From Tetracentron sinense (Eukaryota; Streptophyta; Magnoliopsida; Trochodendrales; Trochodendraceae), in NCBI GenBank assembly GCA_015143295.1, contig CM026559.1, forward strand, positions 19,916,826-19,980,825: a stretch of DNA of 64,000 nucleotides. Reading direction: 5' to 3'. Positions 16,749-59,451 of this stretch are shown in pieces. Below the pieces are notes generated by a model. That model was not told where the DNA came from and did not search any database. It saw nothing but the letters and a program-made list of their open reading frames with translations. A program made the position numbers and the translations under genes. Positions within the stretch are counted from its first letter, which is position 1, and each line of letters begins with the position of its first letter.

Positions 16749-18249
16749 TGAAAACAAATTTGGTGAACCTCAAATCTAGGGTATGAGTTGAGAATCTCAC
16801 AAATTGAAGGGGATGGTTAGGTTTCCCTATAAGTCTATTTACAATTTTTAATATTTAAACAATTAAATTATTAAGTTAAGGGATGATGAATTTAAATGCG
16901 AAAATAGGAAAAACAATCAAACCATAACACAAGGATTTTTACATGGAAACCCTTCCGGGAAAAACCACGGGACCTAGTCCAATCATGAGAATCCACTAAA
17001 ACAAAGTTAACAAGAACTTACAAGACTCGAACTTGACTCATTCGGACTCGACACTTCGATCCTTCAGTTCTTAGTCTTCCACGACTCGAAAAGTTATCAC
17101 GTACTCACAAGTCTCGTGATCAACCGTAGCCGCTTATACTTCTCTTTGTGTCTCGAAAGCAGTCTATGATCTTCCGATCGATCTCCATCAATGATGGCTT
17201 CAGATTCCACGGACCAAATCACACATCTACGATTCTTCTCAGATCGATCTCTTTCGCAAAGGCTTCAAAACACTCCGGCCAATTTCTTCTATCCAAAACA
17301 GGTTGATGGTTTGATGAAAATCAAATCTAGATGGACTCCATCAATGGAAAAGCCCAAGGAAGTAAGAATGATGCATTGGCTTGCAAAATCTAGGATGGAA
17401 GAGAGAATAATTAAGGGGAGGAGAGGCAATCGAAATTAGAGTTTCTATGAACTCTAGGGATAGCTAAAAACCCTCTCAATCCTCTCCTAAGAGTGCTCTT
17501 CACGGACTATAGGTGTTGCATTAAATAGAAGAGCAAACCCCACAACTTAGAAACCGCTAAAAATCAATTTAGAAACTTTTCCCATATCAAGGTCGACCCT
17601 GGAAGTCATTTGGGTCGACCTTGAGGTGCTAAAAAGGGGTTTAATATAAAAATCCATATCAGGGTTGACCCAAGTGTCTTCCAAGGTCGACCCTGGGTTT
17701 TTGCACTCTTTGCCTCTTTTTCCCATACTAATTTTTTCATACTTAGGGTCGACCCTAAGTGGTCAGGGTCGACCTTGAGGTGCAAACCCGATTTTAAAAC
17801 TTTGTTTTTAGCTCTTGCACCCTCCATTAAAGTTGCATCTCTTTTTGACGCGATCGATTTGATATATTATGGAGCAAAATCTGAGTTACGATTTGGGAGA
17901 TATGCCACCTACAAGCAACCTTAGTTTTTTGAAAATTTTCAGAATTTTAAACTTGTTTTGTACTACTTATCTCATCACCTAAGGTCCGTATGATTAGTCT
18001 AGGACACTTATTACCTAAGGCATCATATTAGGATTATTCTAAGTCAATTCCCACCTATGGTAGTATGGTATCTAGGTCACTTACCATCCTATGAGTGAAA
18101 CGAAGGAAATGATCAACTGAGTCTTCAACGCTCTTTAACTTCACTTGTCGTGAATGCTTGATGGCAATGACACAAGACACACACCTAGACACTTAGACTT
18201 ACTTGTTTTGACACCGGAATAAGCCAACAGAAAAAACATGGACTTTACA
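16749..18249 (-). mobile_element. Solo LTR A (1.5 kb) in the 5' LTR of element II
   Basis: The insertion has TG...CA ends (TGAAAACAAATTTGG ... GGACTTTACA) and a perfect 5-bp duplication, TAGGG, at 16744-16748 and 18250-18254. The host LTR resumes exactly after it. There is no internal coding region, as expected after LTR-LTR recombination. On the minus strand a TATTTAAT lies downstream of the palindrome cluster, so I infer minus orientation. The block with ACCCTTCCGGGAAAAACCACGGG is common in plant retroelement LTRs. The family was not determined. Confidence 0.8.
17591..17774. repeat. GGTCGACC palindrome cluster in solo LTR A
   Basis: Five exact GGTCGACC palindromes start at 17591, 17613, 17685, 17747 and 17767, and one variant (GGTTGACC) at 17663. 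Successive spacings are 22, 50, 22, 62 and 20 bp. Flanking bases are often CCTGG or CTTGAGG. On the minus strand the cluster lies upstream of the TATA-like TATTTAAT near 17520-17530. Confidence 0.9.
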
Positions 18250-18473
18250 TAGGGTTTTGAACCTTAGTGTTTTTGGTAGTAGAAAGTCTACGTCATTACT
18301 CCATCTTCTTCCTCTTGCTTCAACAATTCCAAAGAGAGATTCTAAAGCTTCGTGGGAATAGCGAACAACAAGGATCGAGCTTCGAGTATTTCTTCGAGAA
18401 ATTTCGATAAAGAGTTCTGACGGTTTGAGTGGATTAAGTTTCACTGTTGAATATCATTTACCGAGGTGATATG

Positions 18474-20708
18474 TGTTAGACATGATGCTCAGAAAAGTCA
18501 TTTAGATTGTTAGATTCTTATTAATTTGATTAAATAAGACTTCTTTTTAATCTATTGTGTACTCATTATGGGTAATTGACCATGATCATGAGATGATCTA
18601 TACGATATGAGATATCGATAAAGGTCCAAGGATATATTGTAGGAAAGTTATGTGATTAGATTATCACAGGCAGATATAACTTTTCGGCTCCTTATACCTT
18701 ATGTAGTCACAGCTGTCGGTGAAGCTGGACACTTCACTTATATGGCTACCAGAATGCTAAGATGCTCTCAATAGTTGAGATGTAGTTCTATCTCGAACTA
18801 TTGTAGTGGAGACTACACATCGGCATATGGGTGCTTAAATATACATTGATTGATTGCATTCAATGAGAGACCTCTTGCATAAACATACAATCAGATAGTT
18901 GGTCTCTCATTCACATTGAACGGTTTCGATGATCCTTAGATCTGATGAGTTCATCTATGACTGAGCAGTGATCTGACTGTTTTGATTCCACCAACGTATT
19001 TTTTAACTTAGGGAATACAATACAGTGACAATTGGATAGTCAGAAAGTTGTTTAAGTCATGATGAATTTCAAACAAAAAATCCATGCTCATTAATTTGAG
19101 AGATTATCCAAGTTCCGGGTAAGACAGTTGATTAAGTTCAAATCCTAAGTAGGTGATTTTGAAAACAAAATAAGTTTTGAAATATACTTTTATTAAAAGG
19201 TATTATACTTATTAAAGGATTTTCTCAAAATGTTTTTCATGAGAAATTGTTTCTCATGGCTTAATCATAAGTCTTGGAAACCTGGATGATTTGCAATCAG
19301 CTATGGGTTAGATAGTATGTTAATCTCGAAGGCCCATTAGGGATAATGTATTTGGAAGGATAAATTGAATTTAAAAGTTCATGTGGCGGGATCCGTAATG
19401 GTTAATGTTCATACACTGGGATTCAATTGCAACATAAATATCTCACATCACTTGCAATTCCGATGTAATTCCTGTTTAGGGTCAATAGGATAACATTGGG
19501 TAAGCCAGGGTAAGAATGTCCCAAAGCAATCTGTGGAAATGTTCACATAAGAAATACAAGCTCAATAATTGATTAAAATTTAATCAATTATTTAAGTGAT
19601 TAAAAATTAATCATTTAATTAAATAGATTAAAAGTTAATCTATGGTTTAAATTAATTGTTAATTTAAATCTAAGGATTATTTTAATAATTATTTAATTAA
19701 CATAATTAAAAGGGAAATGGGTTTGACCCATATCCATAAACCCATTAAAATTGACCTTTAATATGGGCCAAAGCCAATGGATTTAAACCCTAGGGTGGGG
19801 CGCCCACTTGAGGAATCCTAATTGGATTAGGATTATCTTAATTGAATAATTGTTGAAATTTAATTCCTATAATTATGGAATTAAAATCTAATTGTTAGAT
19901 TGCAATAAGGATGAGGATAAGTTGTAATTACATTACAACTTGGAGTTTTAAACTCCCAAAATCTCACGCCCCACTATAGCTCACGCCCCCCCCCCCCCCC
20001 CCCCCCTTGGTTGTTTAGGTTTCCTAGTTTGACTAGGATTCCTCCAAGTGTTGGTTGTTTGACTTATCCCTTTAATTAAGGAACCCTCTTATAAGAAGGA
20101 CTCCTTAATTAGAAGGTCTTCTATAACTAGAGTAGTTATAGATAAACTAGGAAATTATTTATTAAATAATAAGAGTTATTATTGCTAAATAATTTCTTAA
20201 GAGATAAGATCAAGTTGGAGTAGGATTAGGATAAGATCCTAGTCTATAAATACCCCAACACCCTAGACCATTAAGCACTTTTTTCCTGAATTTCTCTCTC
20301 CTCTCCTCTCTCTCTCTAAACAGTGGGACCCTAGGGATACCCCTAGGGATTTTCATGAACTTCATTGATAGTGCAAGTTGGGTTTTGTTTATTCTAGGGT
20401 TTTGAACATTAGTACTTTTTGTGATAGAAGGTCTACACCATTACTTCATCTTCTTCCTCTTGCTTCTATAATTCTAAGGGAGATTCTAAAGCTTCGTAGG
20501 GATAGCGAAGAACAAGGATCGAGCTTCTAGTATTTTTTCAGAGAAATCTCTACAAAGAGTTCTGACGTTTCGAGTGGATTAAGCTTCACCGGTGAACATC
20601 ATTTACCGAGGTGATATGACTAAAATTCAGTTAATTTTGATGCTTTCTATGGTGTTAAGATCTAGGGGATCTAGTTTCCGCATAAATTTTTATCCGGATC
20701 CCCCTACA
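18474..20708 (+). repeat. 5' LTR of element I (2.2 kb)
   Basis: Starts TGTTAGACATGATGCTC and ends CCGGATCCCCCTACA. The primer-binding site follows after AG: TGGTATCAAAACTC at 20711, close to the initiator tRNA-Met complement used by plant copia elements. It contains a 21-base C run at 19986-20006. Confidence 0.9.
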
Positions 20709-22410
20709 AGTGGTATCAAAACTCATGGTTTAGAGTATTTTTTGTTTATTTAAATAAGGAAATTAAATGGATGATTTAATTCATGAGATGAATTAAATTT
20801 AGATCTATTTAATATAGCTCGTAGTTTTGATTATTTTATTTTTTTATGAGATGAATATATAAATATTTATTTTATTATATTATTGAATGAAATTTAATAA
20901 TGATAATTCAATAAATTTAAAAACTAGCATTATATTTGATATAATTAAATTCAAAATAAAGAGTTTATTTCAAAATTCCTTTTTAAATGATTTTATCATT
21001 TAATATATATTTATTAATTGTTAATAAATGATTTTTCCCATAAATAGATTTTATTCAAAAAATTATAAAACCCTAATTTATGATGTGATCATATTTAGGA
21101 TTTTAGATTCTCTTAATTTTTTATTTTAATCTTGGATAATAGTAGAACCTATATTTGATAATAGTAAAACCAATCTATATGAAAGGATCTTGCATTCGAG
21201 AAAGGATCTTGCATTCAGGAAAGAAATAACATTTTGTAGAGATTTTAAGAAAATTCAATCTTATATTTTAAAAATAATTTCATGAAAATTTTTTTATGGA
21301 AAATATAATTGTTTTATTTTTTCCGGGGTTTAATCTATATAAGATATAGATTTTATCGAGCGATTTGATAATTGTTATCAAATTTGAAATCTTTTCAAAA
21401 TAAGAGAAATTACTTCATCACCATGTAGCATCTTTTTTCTATGAGATTATAGTTATGGGTCATATTTTAGGATAAATTGTTTATCATTCATGCATTCATA
21501 TTAGAGGTTAATATGTAGTAGGTTTTGACAATCTGTAAAGGGCAGATTCATTCAGTTTCCCTGAAAATGGCGAATGGAATACTGGGTTCCCTAATGCCAT
21601 TATTTTATCATGCATTGGTAGAGATGCTATTAAGGAAGATGCTGAGATGATAATCACGATAAGATGATAAAGGAAGAGATCGCAAAGGAGTTTGCAAGCT
21701 GCCTTTATTCTTATTTCATTCTCTTGCATCCATGCATTTTAATTTATTGACCCATAACGATTAATCTCGTATATTATTGTTTTTATTATCATGAGATGAT
21801 AGTTGTTTATTTATTATGAGATGATATCTGTTGTTTAATTATTATGTTGAAATAAATGCCCTTGATATATCATGTGTACATAAAACTGAGGACAAGTCCC
21901 TAAGTATTATGATCTTCTGCCATACACTATGTGATCCTATAGTGGGGAATGTGGGTAAGCTGATAGGCCAAAGCCGGGCCCAATCCCTCTCACCTATATG
22001 TGAACATGGTGAAAACTTTATAAGCAAATAGTGGGAGCAATAACGCCAAAGCGTGAGCTTTCGCTAGGTGTTTATTAGGTTCATGGTAGGTGGGCACATG
22101 AATAAGAAATATTATACAATAACGCCAAAGCGTGAGTATAGCATCCCTTATAGATCAAACAGTAGATCGAATGCTCAAGAATTCACAAGACGAGATCTGT
22201 GAAATTGGAGAAGATAGTTTCTATCTGCCTATTCAAGGCGATGTGATGATATGCCCAAAGGCAGGATCACATTAAGCCAGTGTCTAGGTTTTCGATGCCA
22301 ATTGATTCTTCCCAAATTGGCAATACCATTAGAAACAGACCCATAATCTAATAGGTATTAATGAATACAATAGATCCCGAATACTATCTTATTTGTCATT
22401 TGATTAGATC
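20709..22410 (+). other. Leader region of element I
   Basis: A ~1.7-kb non-coding, very AT-rich leader between the primer site and gag, with repeated short ATGAGATGA and AATAACGCCAAAGCGTGAG blocks. Equivalent leaders are found in elements II and IV. No ORF is supported. Confidence 0.7.
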
Positions 22411-23222
22411 GTGACAGGCCTACACCTATTGACTGAAATAATTCGGGATGAAAAGTTAGTAGGAACTAACTATGTAGACTGGAAAAGAAAAATTAGAATA
22501 CTATTTGCTACTGATAACCTTGACCTATGTCTTAAGACACCTAAACCCGAAATTCCTCCGATGCTTCACCTGCCCAAAAGGCTGAGTTAGAGCAATGGGA
22601 GAGGTTTAATCAGATGACCAAGTGTTACATTCTGGCTTCGATGTCTAACATCTTACAAAGCCAGCATGAACATATGGATAAGGCTTCTGACATTTTGCAA
22701 AACCACATGAGATATTTGGTGAGCAAAATAGGTCAGCTTGACAAGTAAAATTGAAATCCCTTATTAACACCAAGATGACTGAGGGAACTCCAGTTAGGGA
22801 GCACATCATTAAAATGATGGGCTTATTGAATGAACAGGAAATTCTTTGTGGAGAGATGGATGCCATCACTCAGGTTGACACTGTTCTGCAGTCACTCCCT
22901 TCGTCCTTCAATTCATTCGTGTTAAATTATAACATGAAAAATAGTGAAATGTCACTAAGTGAGATTATGAAATCACTTGCGTTTGCAGAAGATTTGATCA
23001 AAAAGTCAACAAATGGTGAAATTTTAACTGTCGATAACCCAGATACCTCCAAATGATCTAAAAAGTTTAGAAAAGGGAACAAAGGCAAAGGAAAGTTCAA
23101 AGACAATAAGGGTAAGGCAAGAGTTGCCAAAGGTTCTTAAGGAAAAGCTAGCAAGGAAAATAAGGGCAATGGAAAGTGTTTCCACTGTGGAAATAGGCCA
23201 CTGGAAAAGGAACTGTCGGACT
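22411..23222 (+). pseudogene. Copia gag of element I (broken)
   Basis: This is the nucleocapsid/coat precursor region. The expected start ATG, seen in elements II and IV, is GTG here (22411). The frame TEIIRDEKLVGTNYVDW opens it, followed by the UBN2-type gag region (for example REHIIKMMGLLNEQEILCGE at about 22798-22857). A lysine/glycine-rich stretch follows, and then a CCHC zinc knuckle at about 23176-23218 that is split by a one-base loss. Several stops are present, including one at about 22746. Confidence 0.85.
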
Positions 23223-23322
23223 TACCTCGCAACTTTTAAGAAGGGTGGTGGCAATACTCAAGGTATGAGATGCTTTGAAGTATTGATTACTGTTGAGTCT
23301 AACTTCCTGGATGGTCCTCTTA

Positions 23323-24776: not shown

Positions 24777-25377
24777 ACCCCTGATGATCAGGATACGGAT
24801 CCTAATATTTATCAAGAAGCTACATTGGATGTAGATGCATCTCAATGGAATAAAGCCATGAATACTGAAATAAGTTCCATGTATGACAACGGCGTCTGGA
24901 CTTTAGTAGATCCACCAGATGGTATAAGGCCAATTAGATGCAAATGGATTTACAAAAGGAAGAAGGGTGCCAATGGTAACGTGGAGACCTATAAAGCTAG
25001 ACTTGTTGCGAAAGGTTATACTCAAATTCAAGAAGTTGATTATGAGGATAACTTTTCACCTGTAGCTATGCTCGAATCCATCAGGATATTGCTAGCTATA
25101 GCTGCACACCATAACTGTAGAACCCCGAAACTTTTGTATATGCCTTGGTATATGTGTCAAGGCTTGTTGGCTTGTAATCTCTTAATTCATGAAATGAAAA
25201 TTGGAAACTTTTGAAGATAGTTTCAAGAATGCTATAATTAATTAAATAAGTTATTTAATGATGTCTATAAGCCTTAAAAGTGTCCTAGTCAAGTTTAGAA
25301 GATGTTAGAATAGGAGTAGAATGGGTCCAAGTAGTAGAATGGGTGAAAAATGGTCTTAGTGTAGAAGTTTGCAGAGC

Positions 25378-25563
25378 ACCGATCGCTCGGTCCATTGCAG
25401 CGATCGATCGGTCCACAACCGGTCGATCGGTATCTATCGACTGGTTAACTTTTTTGTATGGGGAAATTTTCCAGAGAGCATGTTTTTGATCGAGAGTTCG
25501 GTCAAGGTTACCGATCGCTTGGTAGGCGACCAATTGCTCGGTATTTACCACCAATCGATCGGT
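25378..25563. repeat. ACCGATCGCTCGGT-type palindrome cluster in solo LTR B
   Basis: 14-bp near-palindromes start at 25378, 25399, 25418, 25510, 25529 and 25550, with weaker ones near 25432 and 25488. Spacings inside the two groups are 21, 19 and 19, 21 bp. The core is CGATCG or a close variant, with outer ACC/GGT arms. Confidence 0.85.
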
Positions 25564-26504
25564 ATATTATGTTTTACAGAAATTTCATTAAGGGCTTTTT
25601 CATCTTTGGGGCGTTTTACCCTTGCCTTAAAGGTTCTCCCCGAGCATTTGGGGGTTCATAAACCCTAGGTAAGACATTTGAGAGATAGTGAGAGAGGAGA
25701 AAGGGGATCCTAACCTAGGGTTTTCCACTTGAGAATAAATCAAGAGTTTGGGCTACCCAAGATTGTTCCAAGGCTTGGATTCTTCAATCCATGGTTCAAA
25801 CTCGTGAGGAGCACATTCTTCAAGCTAGGGCAGCAACTCCATGCACGTGTAGAAGGATTTTCCTCGCTTCTTCAAGGTCGGTACCTTTTGCTACCCTCCT
25901 AGTTTATACCCTCTTTATTTTCCTTCTTCTTTATCTTGCCTAATGTATGAACCTAATGGAAGATAAATGTATGTGGTGTGACGATGGGTGTTGGGCGATG
26001 GATGCCATATGAATGTGATGTGATGAATGAAATGGGAAGGACATTGTATTAATAATAAACACACATGTGCACCATGAGCTTAACCCATCTAGAAATGTAA
26101 GATATAGGAAATGACAAATAACGTACACACTACATATTTGATGAAATGCCAAGGTGAAGGAAATGAGTTGTAACTTAAGAAATGCATACTTAAAAGCTTA
26201 TGGACTTGCTAGGGCTTATGATAGTGTGATTACTTGCTTTCCCTAAATCGCATAAATAATTACTTGCTCAATTAATGATGTTCTATGTATTGTTGAAATC
26301 CCCAAATGTCATATTTAATTTCAAATGAAAGTATGCACACGATCCCACGAGCACAACATGCATGACATGGTTTACCGGCATTTTCATGATTAAGGTCTAG
26401 AGGTGGGACATATCCTACGATATGTTTTACCTCGCTTTTGACACGAGGACAAGAACAAGCACCGCATAGGAGGGAGTTTACACTTCCCTCCCTCCCATGA
26501 GGGG

Positions 26505-26610
26505 TCTCCTTTCACTCTCAAGTGCATCTCATTAAAGAAGGGTCTCCCTTCCCTCTCAAGTGCATCTCATTAAAGAAGGGCCTCCCTTCCCTCTCAAGTG
26601 CATCTCACAA
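26505..26610. repeat. 38-bp tandem repeat in solo LTR B
   Basis: CTCTCAAGTGCATCTC followed by ATTAAAGAAGGG and TCTCCCTTCC recurs with a 38-bp period (AGTGCATCTC at 26521, 26559 and 26597). Confidence 0.85.
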
Positions 26611-28231
26611 GCACATCTCACAAGTACATGATCATGTTTAGGTTTCAAGCAAGCACGCATGACATGCATGACATGACATGCTTAACAAGATCAAGCAAGA
26701 TAAACATGACAGGTTTTTCAAGCACGCAACGAGTGTTTAAGTCAAGTGCACGATGATTTCAAGAGATTTATCGGTTTTTATGTGATGCAAGCATGAATAT
26801 AAATTGTTTTACTTCCTTATTATTATATGAATTGTTTCCTGCGTTATAATATGAATTGTTTTCTACTTTATATATTGCTATTGTTATGCTATGACTGTTG
26901 GTTAGTATTTGGTACCCGCTGAGTATTCCATGCTCAGCCGTACTTCTCATGTCGGCAGGTGATAGTGGAGTGGCTGCTCCTTTTGATATCTGTGTTCCTG
27001 GCCCTTGGGTAGAAGAGGAGTAAGTTGAGGAACCTGTGGAGGAACGTCAGGTCGAGGGCTACTACTAGGTGATAGATTCTGAGTGAGTGAGCTGTGGGTG
27101 TGAGCTTGAGAGATTAGATTGATGTATTTTGGTGGGCCTATCCGCACCTTCTTTTGTTCCCTTTTGTATAAAACTTGGATCATGTATATATATACTTAGA
27201 GGTTTAGTTAGACTTCCGCTGTGCTTTGTAGTTATGTTTTCGCTTTTACTGTCCTCTATTGTGTATGCTCCAGGTATTTTGCAGGTTGGTTTGTCAAGCA
27301 AGTCATGTAAGGCATGATAGGTCGTCCAAGATTCACTCTAACTCCTAGGGTGGGTTTTGGATCGCGATAATAACTATGAGATATGGCAAATGGATGTCAA
27401 AACTATTTTCCTTAACGGAATGTTAGATGAAGACATCTATATGAAGCAGCCAGAGGGCTTCATTGCTCCTAACCAGGAGAACATGGTATGAAAGCTCAAC
27501 AAGTCGATATATGGTTTGAAACAAGCTTCAAGAAGTTGGAACCAAAGATTTGATCTTTCCATTAAAGAATTTGGATTCCAAAAGAATTTAGAGGAATCTT
27601 GTATATACAAGAAGGATAGTGGGAGAGCAGTAGTATACCTAATTCTTTTAGTAGATGGCATCCTACTCATTGGGAATGATGTAGGGATGTTGTCATCAGT
27701 TAAGATATGGCTTTCTCAACATTTCTCAATGAAAAACTTGGGAGAGGCATTCTATATTCTCGGAATAAAGATTCTGAGAGATACAAAATGCCGAATGTTG
27801 GGATTGAGCCAAACATCCTACATAGACAAGATTTTATCTAGGTACAGTATGAGTGATTGTAAGACAACACTCATTCCTTTTAGACATGGTATCACTTTGT
27901 CTAAAAAGATGGCCCCTACATCAGCTGATGAGATCGAGCAGATGAAGAGGTGCCCTTATACGTCAACAGTTGGGAGCCTTATGTATGCCATGTTATGTAC
28001 TAGACCGGATATCTGTCATGCAGTGGGAGTTGTTAGTCGGTTTCAAAGCAATCCAAATATGAGATAATTGGACTGCAATGAAGATATCATGAAGTACCTG
28101 AAAAGGACTAGGGATTATATGCTTACTTCTCACATATAGGAAATATCTTCTTATTAATGAGATTATTGAGAGATAGGGGCAAGATATTATTGTTACAAAG
28201 ATTAGGTCTCAACTTAATGTTGCTGACCTAA

Positions 28232-28505
28232 CACTACAAAAAAATAGGGCTTTAGTGGCAATTTTTTAACGGCGTTTAATAAAAAACGCTTCGAAAGGCA
28301 TTAAAACACGACGTTTCTATATAAATGCCGCTGATGAGGTGGCGGGAAGACTTTTTTATGGCGTTTTATAAAAAATGCCGTTGTTGGGGAATCTATGACG
28401 GCGTTTTTAAAAGAAATGTCGTGGAAGCCTTGCCGAAATTGCCCAAACGAGGCGGTCGTAAAGGGCCTTTTATGGCGTTTTTAAGAAAACACCGTGAAAA
28501 GCCTC
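28232..28505 (+). repeat. CACTA terminal and subterminal repeats
   Basis: After the terminus, GGCGTTT...AAAACGC-type motifs recur in both orientations near 28268, 28355, 28397 and 28471. Each can form a short hairpin (GGCGTTTT / AAAAACGCC-like). Subterminal repeats of this kind bind the transposase accessory protein in En/Spm elements. That role is inferred here. Confidence 0.6.
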
Positions 28506-32464: not shown

Positions 32465-32507
32465 AATAACAAACGAAGACGGACTTATAAATCTAATCTT
32501 ATAACTC

Positions 32508-33124: not shown

Positions 33125-33150
33125 TGGATGGAGCAATATGTCATTCACTA
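33083..33150 (+). repeat. 34-bp tandem duplication at the CACTA-copia junction
   Basis: 33083-33116 and 33117-33150 are adjacent copies starting TGTCTTAGTGGATGG and ending TCATTCACTA, with one mismatch. The second copy abuts copia sequence (AAGTTTTATTAGAT). The copia partner has GACTAAAG at this point, so ACTA is shared by both sides. Confidence 0.9.
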
Positions 33151-33239
33151 AAGTTTTATTAGATAAAGTATTTGTAACACACTTAGATAGCATGGGATTG
33201 AAATCTATGGTACAGTGACTTTTAGGGCAAGTAGGAGAT

Positions 33240-35464
33240 TGTTAGACATGATGCCCAGAAAATTCATTTAGATTGTTAGATTCTTATTAATTTGATTAAA
33301 TAAGACTTCTTTTTAATCTATTGTGTATTCATTATGGGTAATTGACCATGATCATGAGATGATCTATACAATATGAGATATCGATAAAGGTCCATAAAAT
33401 ATATTTTAGGAAAGTTATGTGATTAGATTATCACAAGCAGATATAACTTTCCGGTTCCTTATACCTTATATAGTCACAACTGTGGGTAAAGCTGGGCACT
33501 TCACTTATATGGCTGCCACAATGCTAAGATGTTCTCAATAGTTGAGATGTAGTTCTATCTCGAACTATTGTAGTGGAGACTACACATCAGCATATGGGTG
33601 CTTAAATATACACTGATTGATTACATTCAATGAGAGACCTCTTGCATAACATACTATCAGATAGTGGGTCTCTCATTCACATTGAACGATTTCGATGATC
33701 CTTAGATCTGATGAGTTCATCTATGACTGAGCAATGATCTGACTGTTTTGATTCCACCAATGTATTTTCTAACTTAGGGAATAGAATATAGTGACAGTTG
33801 GATAGTCAGAAAGCTGTTCGAGTCATGATAAATTTCAAACAAGAAATCCATGCTCATTAATTTGAGAGATTATCCAAGTTACTGGTAAGACAGTTGATTA
33901 AGTTCAAATCCTGTGCAGGTGATTTTGAAAACAAAATGAGTTTTGAAATATACTTTTATTAAAAGGTATTATACTTATTAAAAGATTTTCTCAAAATTTT
34001 TTTCATAAGAAATTGTTTCTCATGGCTTAATCATAAGTCTTGGAAACCCGGATGATTTGCAATGGGCTATGGGTTAGATAGTATGTCAATCTCGAAGGCC
34101 CATTAGGGATAATGTATTTGGAAAGATAAATCGAATTTAAAAGTACATGTGGCAGGATCCGTAATGGTTAATGTTCATACATTGGGATTCAATTGCAAAT
34201 TGAATATCTCACGTCACTTGCGATTCCAATGTAATTCTTGTTTAGGGTCAATGGGATAACATTAGGTAAGCTAAGGTAAGAATGTCCCAGAGCAATCTGT
34301 GGAGATGCTCACATAAGAAATACAAGCTCAATAATTGATTAAAAGTTAATCAATTATTTAAGTGATTAAAAGTTAATCATTTAATTAAATAGATTAAAAG
34401 TTAATCTATGGTTTAAATTAATTGTTAATTTAAATCTAGGAATTATTTTAATAATCATTTAATTAACATAATTAAAGGGGAAATGGGTTTGACCCATATT
34501 TTAGAAACCCATTAAAATGGACCTTTAATATGGGCCAAAGCCCATGGATTTAAACCCTAGGGTGGGGCGCCCACTTGAGGAATCCTAATTGAATTAGGAT
34601 TATGTTAATTGAATAATTGTTGAAATATAATTCCTATAATTATGGAATTAAAATCCAATTGTTGGATTACAATAAGGATGAAGATAAGTTGTAATTGGAT
34701 TACAACTTGGTGTTTTAAACTCCCCAAATCTCACGCCCCACTATAGCTCACTCCCCCCCCCCCTTGGTTGTTTAGGTTTCCTAGATTGACTAGGATTCCT
34801 CCAAGTGGTAGTTGTTTGACTTATCCCTTTAATTAAGGAATCCTCTTATAAGGACTCCTTAATTAGAAGGTCTTCTATAACTAGAGTAATTATAGATAAA
34901 CTAGGAAATTATTTATTAAATAATAAGAGTTATTATTGTTAAATAATTTCTTAAGAGATAAGATCAAGTTAAAGTAGGATTAGGATAAGATCCTAGTCTA
35001 TAAATACCCCAACACCCTAGACCATGAAGCATTTTTTTCTAGAATTTTTCTCTCCTCTCCTCTGTCTCTCTAAACCGTGAGACCCTAGGGATACGCCTAG
35101 GGATTTTCGTGAGCTTCATTGGTGGTGCAAGTTGGGTTTTGTTTATTCTTGAGTTTTGAACCTTAGTACTTTTGGTGATAGAAGGTCTACACCATTACTC
35201 CATTTTCTTCTTCTTGCTTCTGTAATTCTAAAGGAGATTCTAAAGCTTTGTGGGGATAGCGAAGAAAAAGGATCGAGCTTCTAGTATTTTTTCGGAGAAA
35301 TCTCTACAAAGAGTTCTAACGTTTCGAGTGGATTAAGCTTCACCGGTGAACATCATTTACCGAGGTGATATGACTAAAACTCTTAGATAATTTTGATGCT
35401 TTCTATGGTGTTAAGATCTAGGGGATCCAGTTTCCGCATAAATTTTTATCCGGATCCCCCTACT
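33240..35464 (+). repeat. 3' LTR of element I (2.2 kb)
   Basis: Follows the polypurine tract AGGGCAAGTAGGAGAT and starts TGTTAGACATGATGCCC. It ends ...GGATCCCCCTACT at 35464. It pairs with 18474-20708. It contains an 11-base C run at 34753-34763, where the 5' LTR has 21. Confidence 0.9.
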
Positions 35465-35548
35465 TTTATATAATATTAGATGTTTTCTATGGTGTTAAGA
35501 TCTAAGGGATCCTGCTTTCCGCATAATTTTTATCCGGATCCCCCTTCA

Positions 35549-37055
35549 ATTGATATCAAAGCTCATGGTTAGGAGTATTTTTTTTGTTTATTTTAAAGGA
35601 TGAATAAATAGATAATTTAATTCATGAGATGAATTTAATTTAATTTATTTATTTATGCTCATAATTTTTATTATTTTATTTGTTAATGAGATGAATAAAT
35701 AAATAATTAATTTTATTATATTATCGAATGAGATTTGATAATGATAATTAAATATTTTAAAAAACTAGTATAATATATGTGATATAATTTTTGAAATAAA
35801 TTGTTTATTTTGAAAATCTATATTAAATGATTTGATCATTCAATATACATTTATTAATTGTTCAAAGTAATTAATAATGTTTTTTCTAGTAAGTAGATGT
35901 TATTAAAAATTTTAAAACCCTATTTCATGATGTGATCATGTTTAGGTTTCACTATATGTTTTTATAATGCTAGGAAAGTCCTAATATATATATATATATA
36001 TATATATTAATTATTACTTAAAATAGTTTTAAGTATATCCTATCTGGATTTTTTATAAAATAGTTTTATTAAAGTATATTGTGGGAAAATATAATAGTTT
36101 TATTTTCTAGATTTGATCTATATGAGATATAGAATTTTATTGAGCATATTGATAATTGTTATCAATTTTTTGTCTTTTAAAATATCAGACAAATTACTTC
36201 ATCACCATGTTGCATCTTATTATATGAGATTATAATTATAGGTCAATTTTATTCTATGATAAATTGTTTATCATGCATTCATATTAGAGGATAATATGTA
36301 GTAGGACTTTCTGACAATTTTGTAAAGGGTAGATTCATTCGATTTTCCTGAAAAGGGTGAATGGAACCCTGGTTTCCCTAATGCCATTATTTTATCATGC
36401 ATTGGTGGAGATGCTGTAAAGGAGGATGTTGCGATGTTGATCTGGATATGATGATAGAGGAAGGAATCGCGAAGGAGTTAGCGAGCTGCCTTTGTTCTTA
36501 TCCCATTCTCATGCATCCTTGCATTTTAATTTCATTGACCTATACCTATTAATCTCATATGATGTTTATAATTGTTATTATTATCATGAGATGATACTTG
36601 TTGTTTATTTATCATGAGATGATATCTGTTGATTAATTATTCTGTTGAAATAATTGCCCTAATATATCATGTGTATATAAGATTGGAGACAAGTCCCTAA
36701 GTATTATGATCTTCTACAATACACTATGGGATCCTATAGTGGGGAGTGTGAGTAAGCTGATAGGCCAAAGTCGGGCCCAATCCCTCTGACCTATGTGTGA
36801 ACATGGTGAAAACTATATAAGCAAATAGTGGGAGCAATAACGCCGAAGCGTGAACTTTCGTTAGGTGTTTATTAGGTTCATGGTAGGTGGGCACATGAAT
36901 AAGAGATATTATATAATAATGCCAAAGCATGAGTATAATATCCCTTATAAATCAGACAGTAGACCGAATGCTCCAGGATTCACAAGATATGATTTGTGAA
37001 ATTGGAGAAGATAGTTTCTATTTGCTTATTCAAGGCGATGTGATGATGTGCCCAA
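35549..37055 (+). other. Leader of element II, left part
   Basis: A primer-like TGATATCAAAGC follows the LTR end. The sequence then runs parallel to the leader of element I. It is cut at 37055 by element IV and resumes at 58382 with GGCAAGATCTC. Confidence 0.75.
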
Positions 37056-39004
37056 TGAAGGGGGATCCGGATAAAAATTTATGCGGAAACTGGATCCCCT
37101 AGACCTTAACACCATAAAAAGCATAAAAAAATATCTAAGAGTTTTAGTAATATCACCTCGGTGAATGTTTTCACCGGTGAAGCTTAATCCACTCGAACCG
37201 TCAGAACTCTTTGTAGAGATTTCTCCGAAAAAATACTAGAAGCTCGATCCTTGTTCTTCGCTATCCCTATGAAGCTTTAGAATCTCCTTTGGAATTACAG
37301 AAGCAAGAGGAAGAAGATGGATCAATGGTGTAGACCTTCTATCACCAATAATACTAAGGTTCAAAACCCTAGATTTGCAAAACCCAACTAGGACCACCAA
37401 TATAGCTCACAAAAATCCCTAGGGGTCTCCCCTAGGGCTCATGGTTTGGAGAGAGAGAGGAGAGGAGAGAAAAAATTCTGGAGAATTCTACTTAATGGTC
37501 TAGGGTGTTGGGGTATTTATAGATTATGATCTTATCCTAATCCTACTCAACTTGATCTTATCTAGCAGGATTTATTAATTAACAATAACTCTTATTATTA
37601 ATTAAATAAAATCCTACTTAATCCATAATTATTTTAGTTACAGTAATCCTATTAACTAAAGAGTCTCTATTATAAGAGGATTCCTTAATTAAAAGGGATA
37701 AGTCAACATCCTACACCAAAGTAGGAAACCTAGTCAAACTAGGAATTCACAAGGGGGGGCGTGAGCTTCTATGGAACGTGGGATTTGAGGAGTTCAAACT
37801 TCTTATTGTAATCTAATTACAATAACATCTTAATCCTAATTGCAATCCAACACTTGGATTTTAATTCCATAATAAATGGAATTATATTTCAATAATTATT
37901 CAATTAAACAAATCCTAATCCAATTAGGATTCCTCAAGTGGGCACCCCACCCTAAGGTTTAAACCCATGGGCTTTGGCCCATATTAAAGGTCCATTTTAA
38001 TGGGTTTATAGATATGGGTCAAACTCATTTCTCCTTTACTTATGTTAATCAAATAATTACTAAAATAATCCATTCGATTAAATTAACAATTAATTTAAAC
38101 AATAGATTAACTATTAATTTATTTAATTAAATGATTAAATTTTAATTACTTAAAATAATTGATTAAATTTTAATCAATTATTGAGCTTGTATTTCTTATG
38201 TGAGCACCTCTACAGATTGCTCTGCGACATTCTTACCCTGACTTATCCAATGTTATCCCATTGATCCTAAATGGGAATTACATCGGAATTGCAAGTGACG
38301 TGAGATATCCATGTTGTAATTGAATCCCAGTGTATGAACATTAACCACTACGGATCCCGCCACATGAACTTTTAAATTCGATTTATCCTTCCAAATGCAT
38401 TATCCTTAATGGGCCTTCGAGATTGACATACTATCTAACCTATAACCCGGAACTTAAATAATCTCTCAAATTAATGAGCATGGATTTCTTGTTTGAAATT
38501 CATCATGACTTGAACAACTTTCTGACTATCCAACTGTCACTATATTGTATTCCCTAAGTTAGAAAATACATTGGTGGAATCAAAAAAGTCAGATCACTGC
38601 CCAGTCATAGATGAACTCATCAGATCTAAGGATCATCGAAAACCGTTCAATGTGAATGAGAGACCAACTATCTGATAGTATGTTTATGCAAGAGGTCTGT
38701 CATTGAATGCAATCAGTCAGTGTACATTTAAGCACCCATATGCTAATGTGTAGTCTCTACTACAATAGTTCGAGATAGAACTACATCTCAACTATTGAGA
38801 ATATCTTAGCTTTCTAGCAGCCATATAAGTGAAGTGTGCAGCTTCACCCACAGCTGTGACTATATAAGGTATAAGGAACCGGAAAGTTATGTCTACCTGT
38901 GATAATCTAATCACATAACTTTCCTACAATATATCCTATGGACCTCTATCAATATCTCATATCGTATAGATCATCTCATGATCATGGTCAATTACCCATA
39001 ATGA

Positions 39005-45451: not shown

Positions 45452-47655
45452 TGAAAGTATGCCTCTTTTTAATTTTAGAAACACAATTCTTAGGGAGCAT
45501 ACATCGAATCCCAAGATCTGACTAAGATTCTATTTGATTTTATTCAATGAAGGTAGGAATAACATTCACCTTTGCGACTTTGAAATTGTTAAGTCAAATC
45601 CACGTTAGAATATTACTTGCAAAACTTTACAAGTGTCAAGTCTCCTGTCGATTCACACGAACCTTCTTTTTCCTTTAAAGTTTTCTCTAATGGAAGCTAT
45701 TGGCCCTTCCAAATTTTCAGCTCTAGGATCTTGAAATAAAGATCCAATCTTTATTATCAAGAACCTTTCTTGATGATCAAGATCCTTGATCTTCTTCTTC
45801 TTGATTATTCAAAACTTAGAACACACAAGAGAAGAAAGGGGAGAGGGGTGACCGCACACCACTAGAGAGAGGGGCTGGGCGTGAGATTTAAGGAGAGGGG
45901 AGAGGTTTCCAAATCTGGAAATTCTGAAAAATTAAGGAATGCCCAAAGCCTTGGACGTTCATCCCTCTTTATAGGCTTTATTGGTTGCTTGCAACCAAAG
46001 TTTCCTAATCCTTATCCAATAAGGATTCCTCAATTAGTTTCCTATTTGGTTTCTCCATAATTAATTAGGAATAATCAAAATAGAAACTAATCTCATCCAT
46101 TAGTGTCCAACTAATCTCATCCTTATCCTAATCCAATTAGGATTCCTTGATTAGCAAGAAACTAATAGACTCCTTGTCCAATAAGGAATCTTTAATTAGT
46201 AATTAACTCTAACTAACTAACTAACCTTATCCAATAAAGATATTAGCTATTAGATACTAATTAAATAATAATAACAATTATTATTATTAATACCTCCATG
46301 AAGTGGGCGTCCCACCCTAGGTGGGCCCCACCCCACACGCCCAAAAGGTTTCCAAAACCCTCTTGGTCACTTAAATTATTTTTTTATAATAATTCCCAAT
46401 GGGTCCTACCCATTTGGTTTTTTTACATCCAATGTGATTCCACCTTTTAGAGCTTCACTATACCATATGGTGATTACTTAGAGAAATTAATTAATTTAAT
46501 TATAAATTAAATTAAATACTTTAAGAAGGTCCTTATGTGTGGGATCTAAAGGGATCTCCTATTTCCGGTTGTGGGACCAAGTACTGAACCTTTTGGTTAA
46601 AGCATTGTTACTAGGAAACACCTTTTCTAAAACTCCATTAGGATCATAGAATGTTATCTAAGTCTCTGGAGTTCCACCAATCACAATTAATATCCATTAA
46701 CACAATGTGATTAACCTCCAGAAATTAGAGAATTGCTTGTAAGTACCATCTCACAATATATTTACAAATAAATCTTTCCACATTCTGATATCACTTGTAA
46801 GCTTCCAGGATTGGAACAATTCCACTATCTAGTCCCTAGCTTATGAATAGAACCCTTTCTCATGATTACTTTTTCATTGAACTGAGCCTCCAAAACACTT
46901 TTGAAGAAACATTAGAAAAGAACTGACACATATATATTTATATATACTTTTCCATATTGAAAATATCAACTTCGATAAAGACCATTTTACCGAAAAACAC
47001 CAGTACTGGATATAACAGTTCAGTTCAACAAGTATCATCTTGATATCATTATCTCCAATTAAGGAGTTGTGGATTCCTTATTGAGTGTTTATACACTTCT
47101 CCAAACATTGTGTAAATGACCCAATGTACCCGGAGTTAGTCCTGTGTATTGGACATTGCCGATTGGCACATCAAAGCCATATAGACAAATATTTGAGAAG
47201 ATGTTAACCTCTCAGGTCTAAGGATAATTTGTTAAATGGATAACCCTAATACAATCTGACAGTGTACTCCATAGGGTATCCACTAGTGACCCTGTTTAGT
47301 ATTATATACTTGCTACATATACTCACATGTTAGTCAAGAGTCACCACTCTCTGTGAATGAGATTCATCATACTATCTCATAGAGCTACACATGTGTGAGC
47401 CATGATGAAGTACGGTGCCCAATCAATACTCTAGAGGCTTCGAACAATATTAGGTTTACAAAGAACCGGAAAATCATGTCTCCTCGCAACCTTTGCATGA
47501 TTTTCCTACAATGTTACCTATGGAACTTTATGTCATCAACAAATAAGACAGTAATTAATATAAATACCCTTTATAGTTGGTTGTGTGAATGTGATGCTTG
47601 TCTAGTCAACATAGAAAAGTCTCTTATTGGCTTTTGAGGGCATATATGTCTAACA
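45452..47655 (-). repeat. 5' LTR of element III (2.2 kb)
   Basis: Complete TG...CA LTR on the minus strand (TGTTAGACATATATGCC ... GCATACTTTCA). The TGTTAGACAT start is shared with the copia family of elements I, II and IV; the rest of the LTR is different. It contains a CTAA tandem microsatellite near 46210-46225. Confidence 0.85.
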
Positions 47656-47849
47656 AATGAATACACAATAGATTAAGAAGAAACATTTATTAATCAAATT
47701 AATAAGGTTCTAACAATCTAAATGACTTTTCTGGGCATCATGTCCAACAATCTCGGACTTGCCCTAAAAGTCACTGTGCCATAGATTTCAATCCCATACC
47801 ATCTAAGTGTGTTACAAAAACTTTTTCTGATAAAGTCTTGGTCATCGGG

Positions 47850-49330
47850 TCTGCAACATTAAGTTCAGACCTAATCTTTGTAACCACTACATCTTGCCTG
47901 TCAATGATCTCACAAATGAGATGATACTTCCGCTCCACATGTTTCATACTTTTGTGGTTCCTAGGTTCTTTGCTATGGGCTACTGCACCGTTACTATCAC
48001 AGAAGAGAGTGATAGGTTTGAGTGTTGAAGGAACATTTCCTAGCTCTTACTAAAACCTTCCGAACCAGACTGTTTTTTTTTTTGCTGCTTCTGAAGCTGC
48101 AATATATTCTGCTTCTGTGGTGGAGTCAGCAATACTCTTCTGCTTTATGCTCGCCAACTGACAGCAACACCACCCAGTGTAAACACATACCCAGATATGG
48201 AAGCTCTATTGTCCGGATCAGATTGGAAATCGGAATCAATATAACCCAGTCTAACTAAATCATCTGATTGAAAGGTAAGCACATAATCCGTAGTCCTTTT
48301 CAGGTACTTCATAATGTGCTTCACTGCAGTCCAATGATTAACACCTGGATTGCTTTGGAACCGACTAACAACTCCCATTGCATGACAGATATCCAGTCTA
48401 GTACATAACATGGCATACATGAGGCTCCCAACTGCCGAAGCATAAGGGCACCTTTTCATCTGCTAGATCTCATCAACTGATGTAGGGGCCATCTTTTTAG
48501 ACAAAGTGACACCATGTCTAATAGGAATGAGTGTTGTCTTACAATTACTCATACTGTACCTAGACAATATCTTGTCTATGGAGGAAGTTTGGCTCAATCC
48601 CAACATTCGGCATTTTCTATCTCTTAGAATCTTTATTCCGAGAATATATGATACCTCTCCCAATTCTTTCATTGAGAAATGCTGAGAAAGCCATATCTTG
48701 ATTGATGACAACATCCCTACGTCATTCCCAATGAGTAGGATGTCATCTACATAAAAAATTAGGTTTACTACCGCTCTCCCATTGTCCTTCTTGTATATAT
48801 AAGATTCTTCCAAATTCTTTTTGAATCCAAATTTTTTGATCGAAAGATCAAATCTTTGGTTCCAGCTTCTTGAAGCTTGTTTCAAACCATATATCGACTT
48901 GTTGAGCTTGCATACCATGTTCTCCTGGTTAGGAGCAATGAAACTCTCTGGTTGCTTCATATAGATGTCTTCATCTAACATTCTATTAAGGAAATTAGTT
49001 TTGACATCCATTTGCCATATCTCATAGTCATGGCGTGCATCTATAACTAGCAATATCCTGATGGATTTAAGCATAACTACAGGTGAAAAGGTATCCTCAT
49101 AATCAACTCCTTGAATTTGAGTATAACCTTTTGCAACAAGTCTAGCATTATAGGTCTCCACGTTTCCATCGGCACCCTTCGTCCTTTTGTAAATCCATTT
49201 GCATCTAATTGGCCTTATACCATCTGGTGGATCTACTAAAGTCCAGACACCGTTGTCATACATGGAATCTATTTCAGCATTCATGGCTTTGTTCCATTGA
49301 GATGCATCTACATCCAATGTAGCTTCCTGA
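47850..49330 (-). pseudogene. Copia reverse transcriptase and RNase H of element IV
   Basis: On the minus strand one long frame (49317-48463) carries WTLVDPPDGIRPIRCKWIYK, KARLVAKGYTQ-type sequence (here NARLVAKGYTQ), MKQPESF, GLKQASRSWNQRFDL and an intact YVDD box at 48753-48742. A stop at about 48462-48460 interrupts the next part, which goes on to the RNase H region (SVGSLMYAM-type sequence, DSDFQSDPDNRAS). It then decays, with a frameshift around 48140, near the end of pol. It is the least damaged RT of the three copia copies. Confidence 0.85.
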
Positions 49331-49988
49331 TAAGTATTAGGATCTTTATCCTCATCATCAGGGGTAACTAGATAAACTTCATTATTGTAATACTGAAGTC
49401 TATCCGGTGGTCTAGAAACTCTTTCAGACCCTCTCTGTAGAACCCCGGATCTTGATGGCCATTACGACGAATGATATCATATACTAAAGCATGTAAGAAT
49501 GTATTTATGGTGTATGGGTGTTTGGAATGAAATAGGCAAGAGTATAGAATACTCTTGAGTATTGACAAGGGTTATGCCTTGGCATACCCTCGACTCTAAA
49601 TAGCCCTAGCGTTCACACCGCTCGACGGAATCAAGCGATTCTTGGATTTTTGGAAAGGTAATTGAACCCTCTTCGGGGTTCATGTTGATCACTTGTCTTG
49701 GTTTTGAGTTGGTGTTAGGTCAAAAGACCGATTTCTGAAGTCGGGTCGGTTTAAAATCTGGATTGACGAAACCCAATTTCGGATCAGTCAGGTTTAGGGG
49801 CAAAATGGTCCAAGAAAAAGGAAGAATTGGAAGTTGTGAAAAACATGAAAGTTGTTCTCCTTCAAAAGAAAAATCCTACGCAAGTTGAATCATCAAAATC
49901 GGACAAGCAAGTCAAAAGTTATGGCCGAGATACGAAAACGCAAAAATACTGAAGCTTTCTGCAAAAGTTGCGATCGCTTGTAGGGACC

Positions 49989-50155
49989 CTACGAACGATC
50001 GTAGCGGAGCTACGAACGATCGTAGAGTTGCTACGATCGATCGTAAAGCCCCAGAAATGCTGGAAACTCTCGGGTGAAACTACGATTGATCGTAGGAAGC
50101 TACGATCGATCGTAGAAGGCTACGATCAATCGTAAATCGCTACGAACGATCGTAG
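49989..50155. repeat. CTACGAACGATCGTAG palindrome array in solo LTR C
   Basis: Seven 15-16-bp copies with CTACGA/TCGTAG arms start at 49989, 50010, 50031, 50080, 50100, 50120 and 50140. Spacings are 21, 21, 49, 20, 20 and 20 bp. A degenerate GCGATCGC lies just before at 49970. The array ends 55 bp before the TATA box. Confidence 0.93.
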
Positions 50156-50210
50156 ATACGCGATTTTACTTTCTTGGATGCGATTTTTTAGGGGTTTTCA
50201 CCCCTTACAC

Positions 50211-50218
50211 TATAAATA
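50211..50218 (+). promoter_or_regulatory. TATA box of solo LTR C
   Basis: TATAAATA lies in the LTR after the palindrome array and a T-rich stretch, and before GAAGACTTTAGG. It marks the probable U3/R start of transcription for this LTR. Confidence 0.6.
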
Positions 50219-51229
50219 GAAGACTTTAGGAGGGTTTTTGGGTTACCCTAAACCAAGGAGAGTTCCTAGAAAGAGAAGGAAAGGATCTTGAGCATTCCAA
50301 AGAGAGTTTTGCTTGAAACCAAGAAGAGCTTCAATCAAGGGTTGGATCTTCCCCCAATCAAGCTTGGATCATTCAAATCAAGTGAGGATTTTTCAAGGGG
50401 TTTCTTCAACCTAGAAATTGATCCAAAGAGGTTAGTAAACTACTATCTAGCCTTGTTATCATACAAAGATGATTCAAATAGGTGATTTTAATTCCATTAT
50501 GATACAAATAGGAAGTGTGGAAATTTGGGTGAACTAGATCATGAATAAACAATCAAATAAGGTTTTAAAAATTGGGGGTTTTTCAATAACAAGGATGAAT
50601 ATGGCTAAACTTGTAAGAAAATTGTAATACCTTTAAATGAACCATGATTTTAAGTATACTATGATGCAATGACAAACAAGGGATTTTGGGTGAACTTGAT
50701 TATGTTCAAATAAGCAAATAAGGATTTAAGATTTTGGGGGTTTTCCAATAAAAGGGTGAATATGACTATAAGTGCAAGTAAGTGTTAATATCCTCCAAGG
50801 AATCATGATTTTAAGTGTGATATGATGAATTAGGCTTAGAAGCCATGATTGTTATGATGTGACGCAATGAATGAAATGTTCTACATTCTAGAATTGTTTA
50901 AGTATGTTATGATGCTAATATACCTTATATGAACCATATGAGTTACTTAAGGTCTTCAAGTATACTATAATGATCATTATGCCTTGCATGAACATGTTTA
51001 ATTAGTTAAAGCTTTCCACATAGATGTTATAATGCTCACAAGCACTCTACGCATGATAAGTATTGCACGACCGTGGTTTTTCTCATAAGCATGAATTTTC
51101 AAGAAAACATAAGAGGATTTTCAAAGGTATTTATAAGTAAGAAGCATACATGCATAAACATAGACTAAGCCAAACTTTGGGTTGGCATTCTAAGATCGGT
51201 TATCCCACGCTCACAAGGATCAAGTCTAG

Positions 51230-51490
51230 ATCTTGCATGAACTCCACGGATCATAAGTCTCGCAAGGCTTTTCAAGAACTCATAAGAAACTCACAAGTCT
51301 AAGATCTTGCATATGTCTCCAAGGAGAACAAGCTCACAAGGATCATAAGCTCACAAGAAGCTCACAAGTACTCATAAGCTCACAAGAAGCTCATAAGCTC
51401 ACAAGTACTCACAAGCTCACAAGAACTCTAAGCTCACAAGAACTCATAAGAAAACACGAGGCTCACAAGCATTCATAAGAACTCATAAGC
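51230..51490 (+). repeat. CACAAG/CATAAG short tandem array in solo LTR C
   Basis: AAGCTCACAAG and AACTCATAAG units recur many times with irregular 6-22 bp spacing. Confidence 0.85.
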
Positions 51491-52094
51491 ATACATGAGA
51501 GGGTTTGTTTTCCATGAAAAGAACAAGTTTTATGAAAGGTTTTTCCCGACGGGTTTTAAGCATAGATTTTGGTGATTTGTATTATTTTATGCACTGTATA
51601 AAATATTGTGATTATGATAGCATTGTTAGCTAGTAGATTTTGCTCGCTGAGTATTCCATGCTCAGCCGTACATGTTATGTCGGCATGTACACGGACTCCA
51701 TTTGACATCTGTGATCAGGGGCCCTGGATAGAGGAGGATTATGACGAGGAGGAACCATATGTAGAGCCTCAGGAGGAGGCAAATGACTTAGACCACTGGC
51801 CCTTTTAGAGTGATTACATAGAGAGAGAGAGAGAGTATTATCATTTTGTATTTTGATAGGTGGGCATGTCCACCTTTACTTTTGTGATGTATGTACAAAC
51901 TTGGAATACACAGCATGTATAGAAAAGAAATTTTTGGATTACGCTTCCGCACATTGGTTTAAGCTTCCGCCTTATTCATGATTATGTTTGTCATGACTTG
52001 GATGTTATTACAGGATGGTTTGGTATCGGATATGGCACATCACGAGCCAAAGTATCCCTAACTCCCAGGGGGTATTTTGGGTCGCGACATTCTC

Positions 52095-53475: not shown

Positions 53476-53544
53476 AGAGGACCGTCCAGAAAGTTAGACT
53501 CAACAGTAATATGTACTTCAAAGTATCTCATACCTTAAGTACTT

Positions 53545-58376: not shown

Positions 58377-58533
58377 CCCAAAGGCAAGATCTCATTAAAC
58401 TAATGTCTAGGTTTTCGATGCCAATTGAAACTTCCTAAATTTGCAATACTATTATAAACAAACCCATAATCTAATAGTAATTAATGAATACAATAGATCC
58501 CTAATACTATCCTATTTGTCATTTGATTAGATC

Positions 58534-59345: not shown

Positions 59346-59451
59346 GATCTACCTCACAACTCTTAAGAAGGGTGGCGGAAGTACTCAAGGTATAAGATGC
59401 TTTGAAGTACTTATTATTGTTGAGTCTAACTTTCTAGATGGTCCTCCTAAC

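Follow-up and report, generated by a model that had tools for sequence, protein, structure and literature searches.

Arrays of palindromic sites with a spacing near 20 bp in copia and Ty3/gypsy long terminal repeats of Tetracentron sinense

Three solo LTRs and their palindrome arrays

We examined a stretch of 64,000 nucleotides (the window) from the 1.16 Gb genome of Tetracentron sinense (assembly GCA_015143295.1, contig CM026559.1, positions 19,916,826 to 19,980,825; G000:C9 in our numbering), in which an initial annotation had noted palindrome clusters in three solo long terminal repeats (LTRs), here called A, B and C. We show that each LTR carries dyad sites in a row, set mostly at intervals of 19-22 bp with occasional larger gaps, as had been noted, and that the pattern, rather than being limited to these three, extends to thousands of copies. 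The LTRs and their arrays are as follows.

16749..18249, minus strand: solo LTR A, 1501 bp, TG...CA, putatively copia and Sirevirus-like, with empty-site paralogs
17589..17776, minus strand: palindrome array A, six AGGGTCGACCCT-like sites, plus-strand gaps 22/50/22/62/20
25116..27369, plus strand: solo LTR B, 2254 bp, TGTAGAACCCCG...GCGATA, putatively Tekay/Del-like Ty3/gypsy, with an empty-site paralog at 61240
25378..25563, plus strand: palindrome array B, ACCGATCGATCGGT-like sites, gaps 21/19/71/21/19/21 with the weak site at 25489 kept and the weak site at 25432 omitted
49436..52089, plus strand: solo LTR C, 2654 bp, TGTAGAACCCCG...GTCGCGACA, of B's LTR group, with empty-site paralogs
49968..50155, plus strand: palindrome array C, CTACGATCGATCGTAG-like sites, gaps 21/21/21/49/20/20/20

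Comparison of the window with itself gave paralogs without the insertions, and A, B and C are therefore solo LTRs. That each is a real insertion is supported by the empty sites together with 5-bp target duplications, namely TAGGG/TAGGG for A (16744-16748 / 18250-18254), ATAAC/ATAAC for B (25111-25115 / 27370-27374) and CTCTC/TTCTC, with one base different, for C (49431-49435 / 52090-52094). Inner borders of A with a GAAAA duplication were dropped, as paralogs and genome copies gave 16749-18249. Duplicated or inverted stretches of about 77-96% identity, the source of the empty sites, make up much of the window (15379-21102, 33155-39004 and 52093-64000).

The dyad sites are 12-16 bp long and follow each other at 19-22 bp within runs, with larger gaps of 50 and 62 bp in A, 71 bp in B and 49 bp in C. 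Sites of A start at 17589, 17611, 17661, 17683, 17745 and 17765, and are the sole matches with at most two mismatches in the 64 kb; those of B start at 25378, 25399, 25418, 25432, 25489, 25510, 25529 and 25550 (25432 and 25489 weak, four mismatches each), and those of C at 49968 (weak, four mismatches), 49989, 50010, 50031, 50080, 50100, 50120 and 50140. Counted free of any motif, as 14-mers with at least six of seven pairs matched, dyads numbered 10 in B (2.1 expected, maximum 9 in 200 shuffles) and 10 in C (2.5 expected, maximum 7 in 200 shuffles); A is unremarkable once its motif is left out of account (4 dyads, 1.4 expected, maximum 5 in 200 shuffles). A chance origin of the arrays is rejected by these shuffles and by those of 94 U3 (unique 3′) regions described below. 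The palindromes of B and C, reported as different, do differ in their flanks, but their core, CGATCGATCG, is common to both, and the consensus words of A, B and C are all centred on TCGA.

LTR groups and motif classes

B and C belong to one large LTR group, probably Tekay/Del-like Ty3/gypsy, and A, as the annotation held, to a different family. Two blocks served to collect the group.

26918..26943 (B) and 51646..51671 (C), plus strand: anchor block, 26 bp, inverted repeat GCTGAG-TATTCCATG-CTCAGC
49876..49903, plus strand: conserved U3 box, CAACGCAAGTTGAATCGTCAAAATCGGA with two mismatches, upstream of array C

The anchor block, which lies in the 3′ part of the LTR and is perhaps an RNA stem in R/U5 (repeat/unique 5′), has 28,094 genome copies at up to three mismatches, the U3 box has 29,022 at up to two, and a C-type 16-mer has 3743 exact genome matches (1903 + 1840), with none for the reversed control in each case. 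The first 60 of 100 listed anchor places were fetched and form, with B and C of the window, 62 anchored stretches; 20 box loci and then 20 more, as 413-bp pieces, brought the sample to 94 box-bearing U3s. Because the last 20 were picked for unusual box variants, class frequencies are not representative, and contig C1 is the source of every fetched gypsy locus. The box, CAACGCAAGTTGAATCGTC-AAATC, lies upstream in 54 of the 62 anchored stretches and is missing from window B and seven fetched loci, five of which still have B-type sites and two of which (L011 and L068) have no array. At a fixed offset of 33 bp past the box, GAGTCAAAAGWTATGG occurs in 53 of the 54 box-bearing stretches; in the remaining one, L054, its best match is elsewhere in the stretch. 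Termini vary, with a TGTAGNACCCC start in 23/62 and a GGGTCGYGACA end in 28/62, the GGG being one base off the positions in the accessible part of PMC4029996. At one locus, L009, 366 codons before a B-type LTR match SH3_Tf2-1 (E = 9e-27) and rve (E = 2.4e-05, below the Pfam cut-off), and end in a chromodomain-like stretch that is visible by eye only and has no Pfam match.

The 94 box-bearing U3s fall into seven classes, B (52), D (15), C (7), E (3), F (3), G (2) and H (2), with 10 outside any class; G and H are known from two copies each. Their words are ACCGATCGATCGGT (B), CTACGATCGATCGTAG (C), TGCGATCGATCGCA (F), GACGATCGATCGTC (G), CCGCTCGAGCGAG (E), CACTCGTCGACGAGTG (H) and CAACGTGTACGTTG (D). 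Core CGATCGATCG is common to B, C, F and G, each of which has its own symmetric flanks (AC, TA, TG and GA), and TCGA stands at the centre of every consensus word (A, B, C, E, F, G and H) except that of D. The outer dinucleotides are symmetric in 263/344 sites of B, 39/43 of C, 14/17 of F and 8/8 of G, sites that were selected by motif. Motif classes containing several CpGs differ among copies having the same box. In the D-type or D-like cassettes of L012, L055, L083 and L084, CAACGTGTACGTTG-like sites merge into long repeats such as CACCACGAGTGGCACTATTCA, a type about 26 bp long in L012 and L055. One site in the F array of L070, TACGATCGATCGTA, matches the C-type core perfectly and differs from the TG..CA sites around it by a symmetric double change.

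Family A appears to be copia and Sirevirus-like. Scoring of 40 of 5634 candidates gave 56 matching pieces, among them the window copy and 33 other near-complete LTRs (79-88% identity over almost all of the 1501 bp); arrays were fetched from 20 and analysed with the window copy (n = 21; LTRs only). As scanned, they hold 4-8 sites per LTR. Read in the direction of transcription, spacing is exactly 20/62/22/50/22 in 10 of the 21 copies, and the other 11 deviate from this by a single base gained or lost, by the lack of a site, by additional 22-bp units or by one more weak match. One relative on C9 matches Retrotran_gag_3 (E = 1.3e-05) and twice zf-CCHC (E = 5.2e-05 and 1.3e-03, the second below the Pfam cut-off), with a coiled coil judged by eye. 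In this relative, with its copia-type gag and two zinc knuckles, the LTR is directly followed by TGGTATCAGAGC, presumably a match to initiator-Met tRNA.

Spacing and site borders

Spacing near 20 bp lies far above shuffled controls, while the spacer sequence is variable. In the 94 U3s, motif-free dyads numbered 381 against 40.5 in shuffles, and 131 of 294 neighbouring distances (114 of them in class B) lay at 19-22 bp, compared with 0.1 in shuffles. Motif-based gaps fell within 19-22 bp in A (57/103), B (233/292), C (31/36), E (5/8), F (10/14), G (4/6), H (4/4) and D (4/46). A second gap of 49-51 bp was found in A (18 times), C (4), E (3), F (3) and G (2); B has a 71-bp gap instead (41 times).

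Pair searches, which allowed 14-44 bp (C and F) or 10-40 bp (E), returned 5144 matches for C, 668 for E (each pair counted on both strands) and 4408 for F. Among the matches listed first, with strand duplicates merged, the distance was 20-21 bp in 61 of 86 C pairs (17 at 40-42, six at 16 and two at 37-38 bp, a tally that omits one further listed row at 40 bp), 20-22 bp in all 50 E pairs, and 20-22 bp in 59 of 77 F pairs (17 at 40-42 and one at 44 bp). The spacers of these 59 F pairs come in at least 38 different sequences (36 up to strand), those of 6 bp having a mean identity of 0.29. Such a near-fixed distance across varied spacer sequence is the strongest sign of constrained spacing. Consistently, site-to-site identity within copies of A, B, C and F is mostly 0.55-1.0 in the motif, a range inflated by the choice of sites by motif match, and mostly 0.2-0.5 outside it.

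Rows of this kind could also be the trace of passive tandem duplication, in which a 20- or 40-bp unit is copied and regular spacing follows. The alternating variants of B (21/19 gaps) and of F (20/21) do resemble two-site units of 40-41 bp, and similarity in D reaches well beyond the palindrome. However, in A, B, C and F the sites resemble one another but the spacers are hardly more alike than by chance, a gap of 49-51 bp is common to A, C, E, F and G, and E keeps 21/50/21 with varied spacers, 8 of 9 neighbouring pairs among the matches listed being 71-72 bp apart. Pure tandem duplication as the sole cause is largely excluded for A, B, C, E and F, and we regard the duplication account as improbable.

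The annotation had placed the sites on one face of the helix, which holds inside runs; at 10.5 bp per turn, the 49-51-bp gap amounts to 4.7-4.9 turns and the 71-bp gap to 6.8, and strict one-face phasing was dropped because these gaps are out of phase. We also rejected a plain homology of the 50-bp gaps across classes, since only E-F is clearly above shuffles (0.48 vs 0.33), C-G being weakly above (0.43 vs 0.34) and the other four pairs not.

Position relative to the promoter

17521..17527, minus strand: TATA-like TATTTAA, 61 bp past the last A site
50211..50216, plus strand: TATA box CTATAAATAG, 55 bp past the last C site

A cluster just upstream of a TATA-like site, as had been suggested, is thus present in C and, on the minus strand, in A; near the array of window B there is none, and the first strict TATA word comes 748 bp on. 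Across 105 arrays, in which a strict TATA pattern was sought up to 250 bp beyond the last dyad, it follows the array in A (19/21, 60-71 bp), C (7/7, 52-82 bp), E (3/3, 45-47 bp), B (19/52, 56-93 bp), F (1/3), G (1/2) and H (1/2, 115 bp), and in 0/15 of D. Median distances are 61 bp in A, 52 bp in C and 45 bp in E, and about 45-63 bp for classes A, B, C, E, F and G. The proposed U3 position upstream of the TATA region is therefore supported, best for A, C and E.

Motif switching and an element common to A and B

A tree was built from 70 stretches downstream of the arrays, with the arrays excluded, on which the seven motif states require 8 changes (minimum 6; shuffled mean 17.7). Given the well-supported branches, at least three changes are needed for B and two or more for F; one strongly supported backbone carries B (8), G (2) and F (1), and both D rows lie among B rows. 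The tree is a short, 'quick' one in which 2/15 D and 6/7 C copies were usable and 10 unassigned copies were dropped; C_L054, H_L116, C_L117 and H_L111 are long-branched, and recombination may distort it. B and D arrays sit, by eye, between closely similar flanks (e.g., L071 vs L055). Of the rapid sequence change at constant architecture that the annotation had envisaged, it holds that the motif differs by subfamily and that spacing is kept in most classes, but the change is partly whole-array replacement from one LTR backbone to another and not smooth divergence.

Cassettes of A and B have a part in common, represented in the window by two features.

25453..25480, plus strand: element TTTGTATGGGGAAATTTTCCAGAGAG, between the B sub-clusters, with a related element in A-family cassettes
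17695..17744, minus strand: 62-bp gap of A with a diverged form of the element, 8/28 mismatches

Element TTTGTATGGGGAAATTTTCCAGAGAG has 15396 genome copies at up to three mismatches and none for the reversed control. As a stretch of about 35 bp, it occupies the gap between sub-clusters in the same orientation in A and B, the best pairs having 91% identity and 44.0 bits against a shuffled best of 34.0 (20 A sets), and all 148 reported A-cassette matches are class B. Its 28-mer was matched in 18/21 A copies at up to nine mismatches (best of 420 shuffles, 10), a threshold at which no copy of C, D, E, F, G, H or the unassigned group has it. Compared as a whole with 64 gypsy stretches, window LTR A gave no clear match (best E = 0.042; element region, 0.83). 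The apparent sharing of this part may reflect common descent of the cassette, exchange or strong convergence.

Proposed function and rival explanations

We give about even chances to a reading of the arrays as cassettes for the upstream regulation of LTR promoters, whose rows of dyads would be bound by symmetric protein dimers. Each dyad of the homotypic row, which lies between the conserved upstream box and the promoter, would be bound as double-stranded DNA by such a dimer, most likely a host transcription factor, with one dimer per 20-21 bp, and binding may activate transcription. A change of motif might let the element switch its partner factor or escape sequence-matched silencing, and could proceed in two modes, one altering the flanks symmetrically around a kept core CGATCGATCG, the other exchanging the cassette as a whole, for which template switching between co-packaged RNAs is the probable route. 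A more tentative extension, which we doubt more than we believe, is that promoters in the LTRs of unrelated plant retrotransposons use an interchangeable cassette, a 20-21-bp dyad lattice with two sub-clusters round a middle element, in which the word is replaced as a set and parts pass between Ty1/copia (A) and Ty3/gypsy (B), so that binding partner or silencing identity would be switched in one step.

Several observations weigh against the regulatory reading. A strict TATA follows only 51/105 arrays (B 19/52, D 0/15), and the motifs point to no single factor. Class D is spaced mainly at 23 and 34 bp, and its site similarity, like part of that in E and H, continues beyond the palindrome, much as a simple tandem repeat would. 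Gaps of 49-51 and 71 bp break strict helical phase, and the central four bases include one that is variable in B, C and F (identity 0.43, 0.42 and 0.34), which is unexpected for a strict dyad. Ten of the 94 box-bearing U3s (L015, L057, L058, L069, L078, L081, L083, L084, L085 and L122) fit no class; some are D-like repeats, one is interrupted and some have no clear array. Furthermore, the data come from a single genome, with the gypsy loci from a single contig, and copies of the same class are not independent. Two further points of this kind, RNA folding and CpG decay, also favour a rival.

In that rival, the hairpins into which U3 transcripts fold give rise to small RNAs, and the arrays serve as targets of silencing or as a structured 3′ RNA that the element needs. 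The window arrays fold better than shuffles (z = -6.7 and -6.8 for C, -6.1 and -3.8 for A, -4.4 and -1.7 for B), against -0.04 and -0.28 in two control stretches, and the varying central base in B, C and F would be the hairpin loop. Changes at site CpGs are mostly C-to-T or G-to-A in A (31/36), B (70/88), C (31/35) and G (9/9), resembling methylated DNA, but not in F (5/15). A small-RNA excess at palindromic clusters of maize Sireviruses is also on record (Bousios 2016, as cited in the accessible part of PMC10760457). On the other hand, hairpins need no near-fixed 20-21-bp spacing with varied spacers, the centre of A is wholly kept apart from CpG decay, and selection for silencing avoidance would be expected to eliminate structure. 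Because the centre varies in B, C and F and is kept in A, it favours neither a DNA dyad nor an RNA hairpin. On balance we consider the RNA account unlikely.

Improbable too, in our view, is an account in which an anti-silencing protein, encoded by the element or coevolving with it, targets the arrays as VANC does in VANDAL transposons, with motif switching tracking the protein. The sites are CpG-rich and mostly decay at CpG, in keeping with such a role; VANDALs are DNA transposons, which speaks against it. In the accessible parts of the reports, VANC targets are motif-bearing tandem repeats in noncoding DNA, considerably variable between related transposable elements (PMC5735166, PMC10398659). 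The likeness to our arrays lies in clusters of short noncoding motifs, replaced as a whole set between related elements (Hosaka et al. 2017, PMC5735166). The accessible part of the same report differs in that an element-encoded binder is known and the motifs are not described as palindromic (PMC5735166).

Relation to known systems

Palindrome arrays in Sireviruses and variable CpG islands in Del elements are already known, whereas for gypsy arrays, motif switching and the A/B element we found no description. The annotation knew of no name for the pattern, yet palindromic repeated motifs (RMs) upstream of TATA in Sirevirus LTRs had been described by Bousios et al. 2010 (PMC2829016). In the accessible part of that paper, RM boxes comprise at least eight dyad copies per element in 13 elements, with a CGG-CCG core in all but Tnd-1 (PMC2829016). 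Like our arrays, they are multi-copy CpG-rich dyads in the upper LTR half, upstream of TATA and differing between elements, and the Vitis RM CGGTCGACCG contains A's GGTCGACC (PMC2829016). Family A shows the array upstream of TATA near mid-LTR in 19/21 copies (60-71 bp), but instead of the CGG-CCG core it has GGG..CCC around TCGA. According to that paper, RMs are specific to Sireviruses, the classic copia elements in its comparison having none (PMC2829016), whereas similar arrays occur here in a Ty3/gypsy group as well; the accessible description gives no spacing rule, while we find a mostly 20-21-bp lattice, a recurring 50-bp gap and seven motif classes in one genome.

The gypsy arrays probably share lineage and place with a part of U3 in Del/Tekay LTRs known as the hypervariable 5′ CpG island (Cruz et al. 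2014, PMC4029996), which is CpG-rich, variable in length and sequence and, to its authors, a possible moving target for silencing. The accessible part of that paper has no palindromes, spacing or motif classes, and the island is absent from its eudicot elements (PMC4029996). A literature search on palindromic motifs in Tekay, Del and chromovirus LTRs showed no gypsy arrays in top-ranked titles and abstract starts, most subscription journals being outside its coverage. Activator boxes of Tnt1-type LTRs are likewise repeated, partly symmetric and located in U3, with few copies and in one family, and we know of no motif switching at fixed spacing among them. Box I of Tnt1 is given as symmetric in the accessible part of PMC2829016.

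The two earlier descriptions, of Sirevirus palindromes and Del CpG islands, may merge into one layout of box, 20-21-bp dyad array with a 50-bp gap, and TATA. Copies with this layout and different site words form a natural promoter series, suited to asking whether motif change serves a change of partner, the dodging of small RNAs, or both. The A/B element, if confirmed, would represent regulatory exchange between the copia and gypsy superfamilies.

As for the rest of the window, a tRNA scan and an Rfam scan at gathering scores were both empty. Further tandem arrays lie downstream of the promoter region, at 51328-51490 in LTR C (AAGCTCACAAGAACTCAT) and at 26502-26607 in LTR B (38-bp unit).

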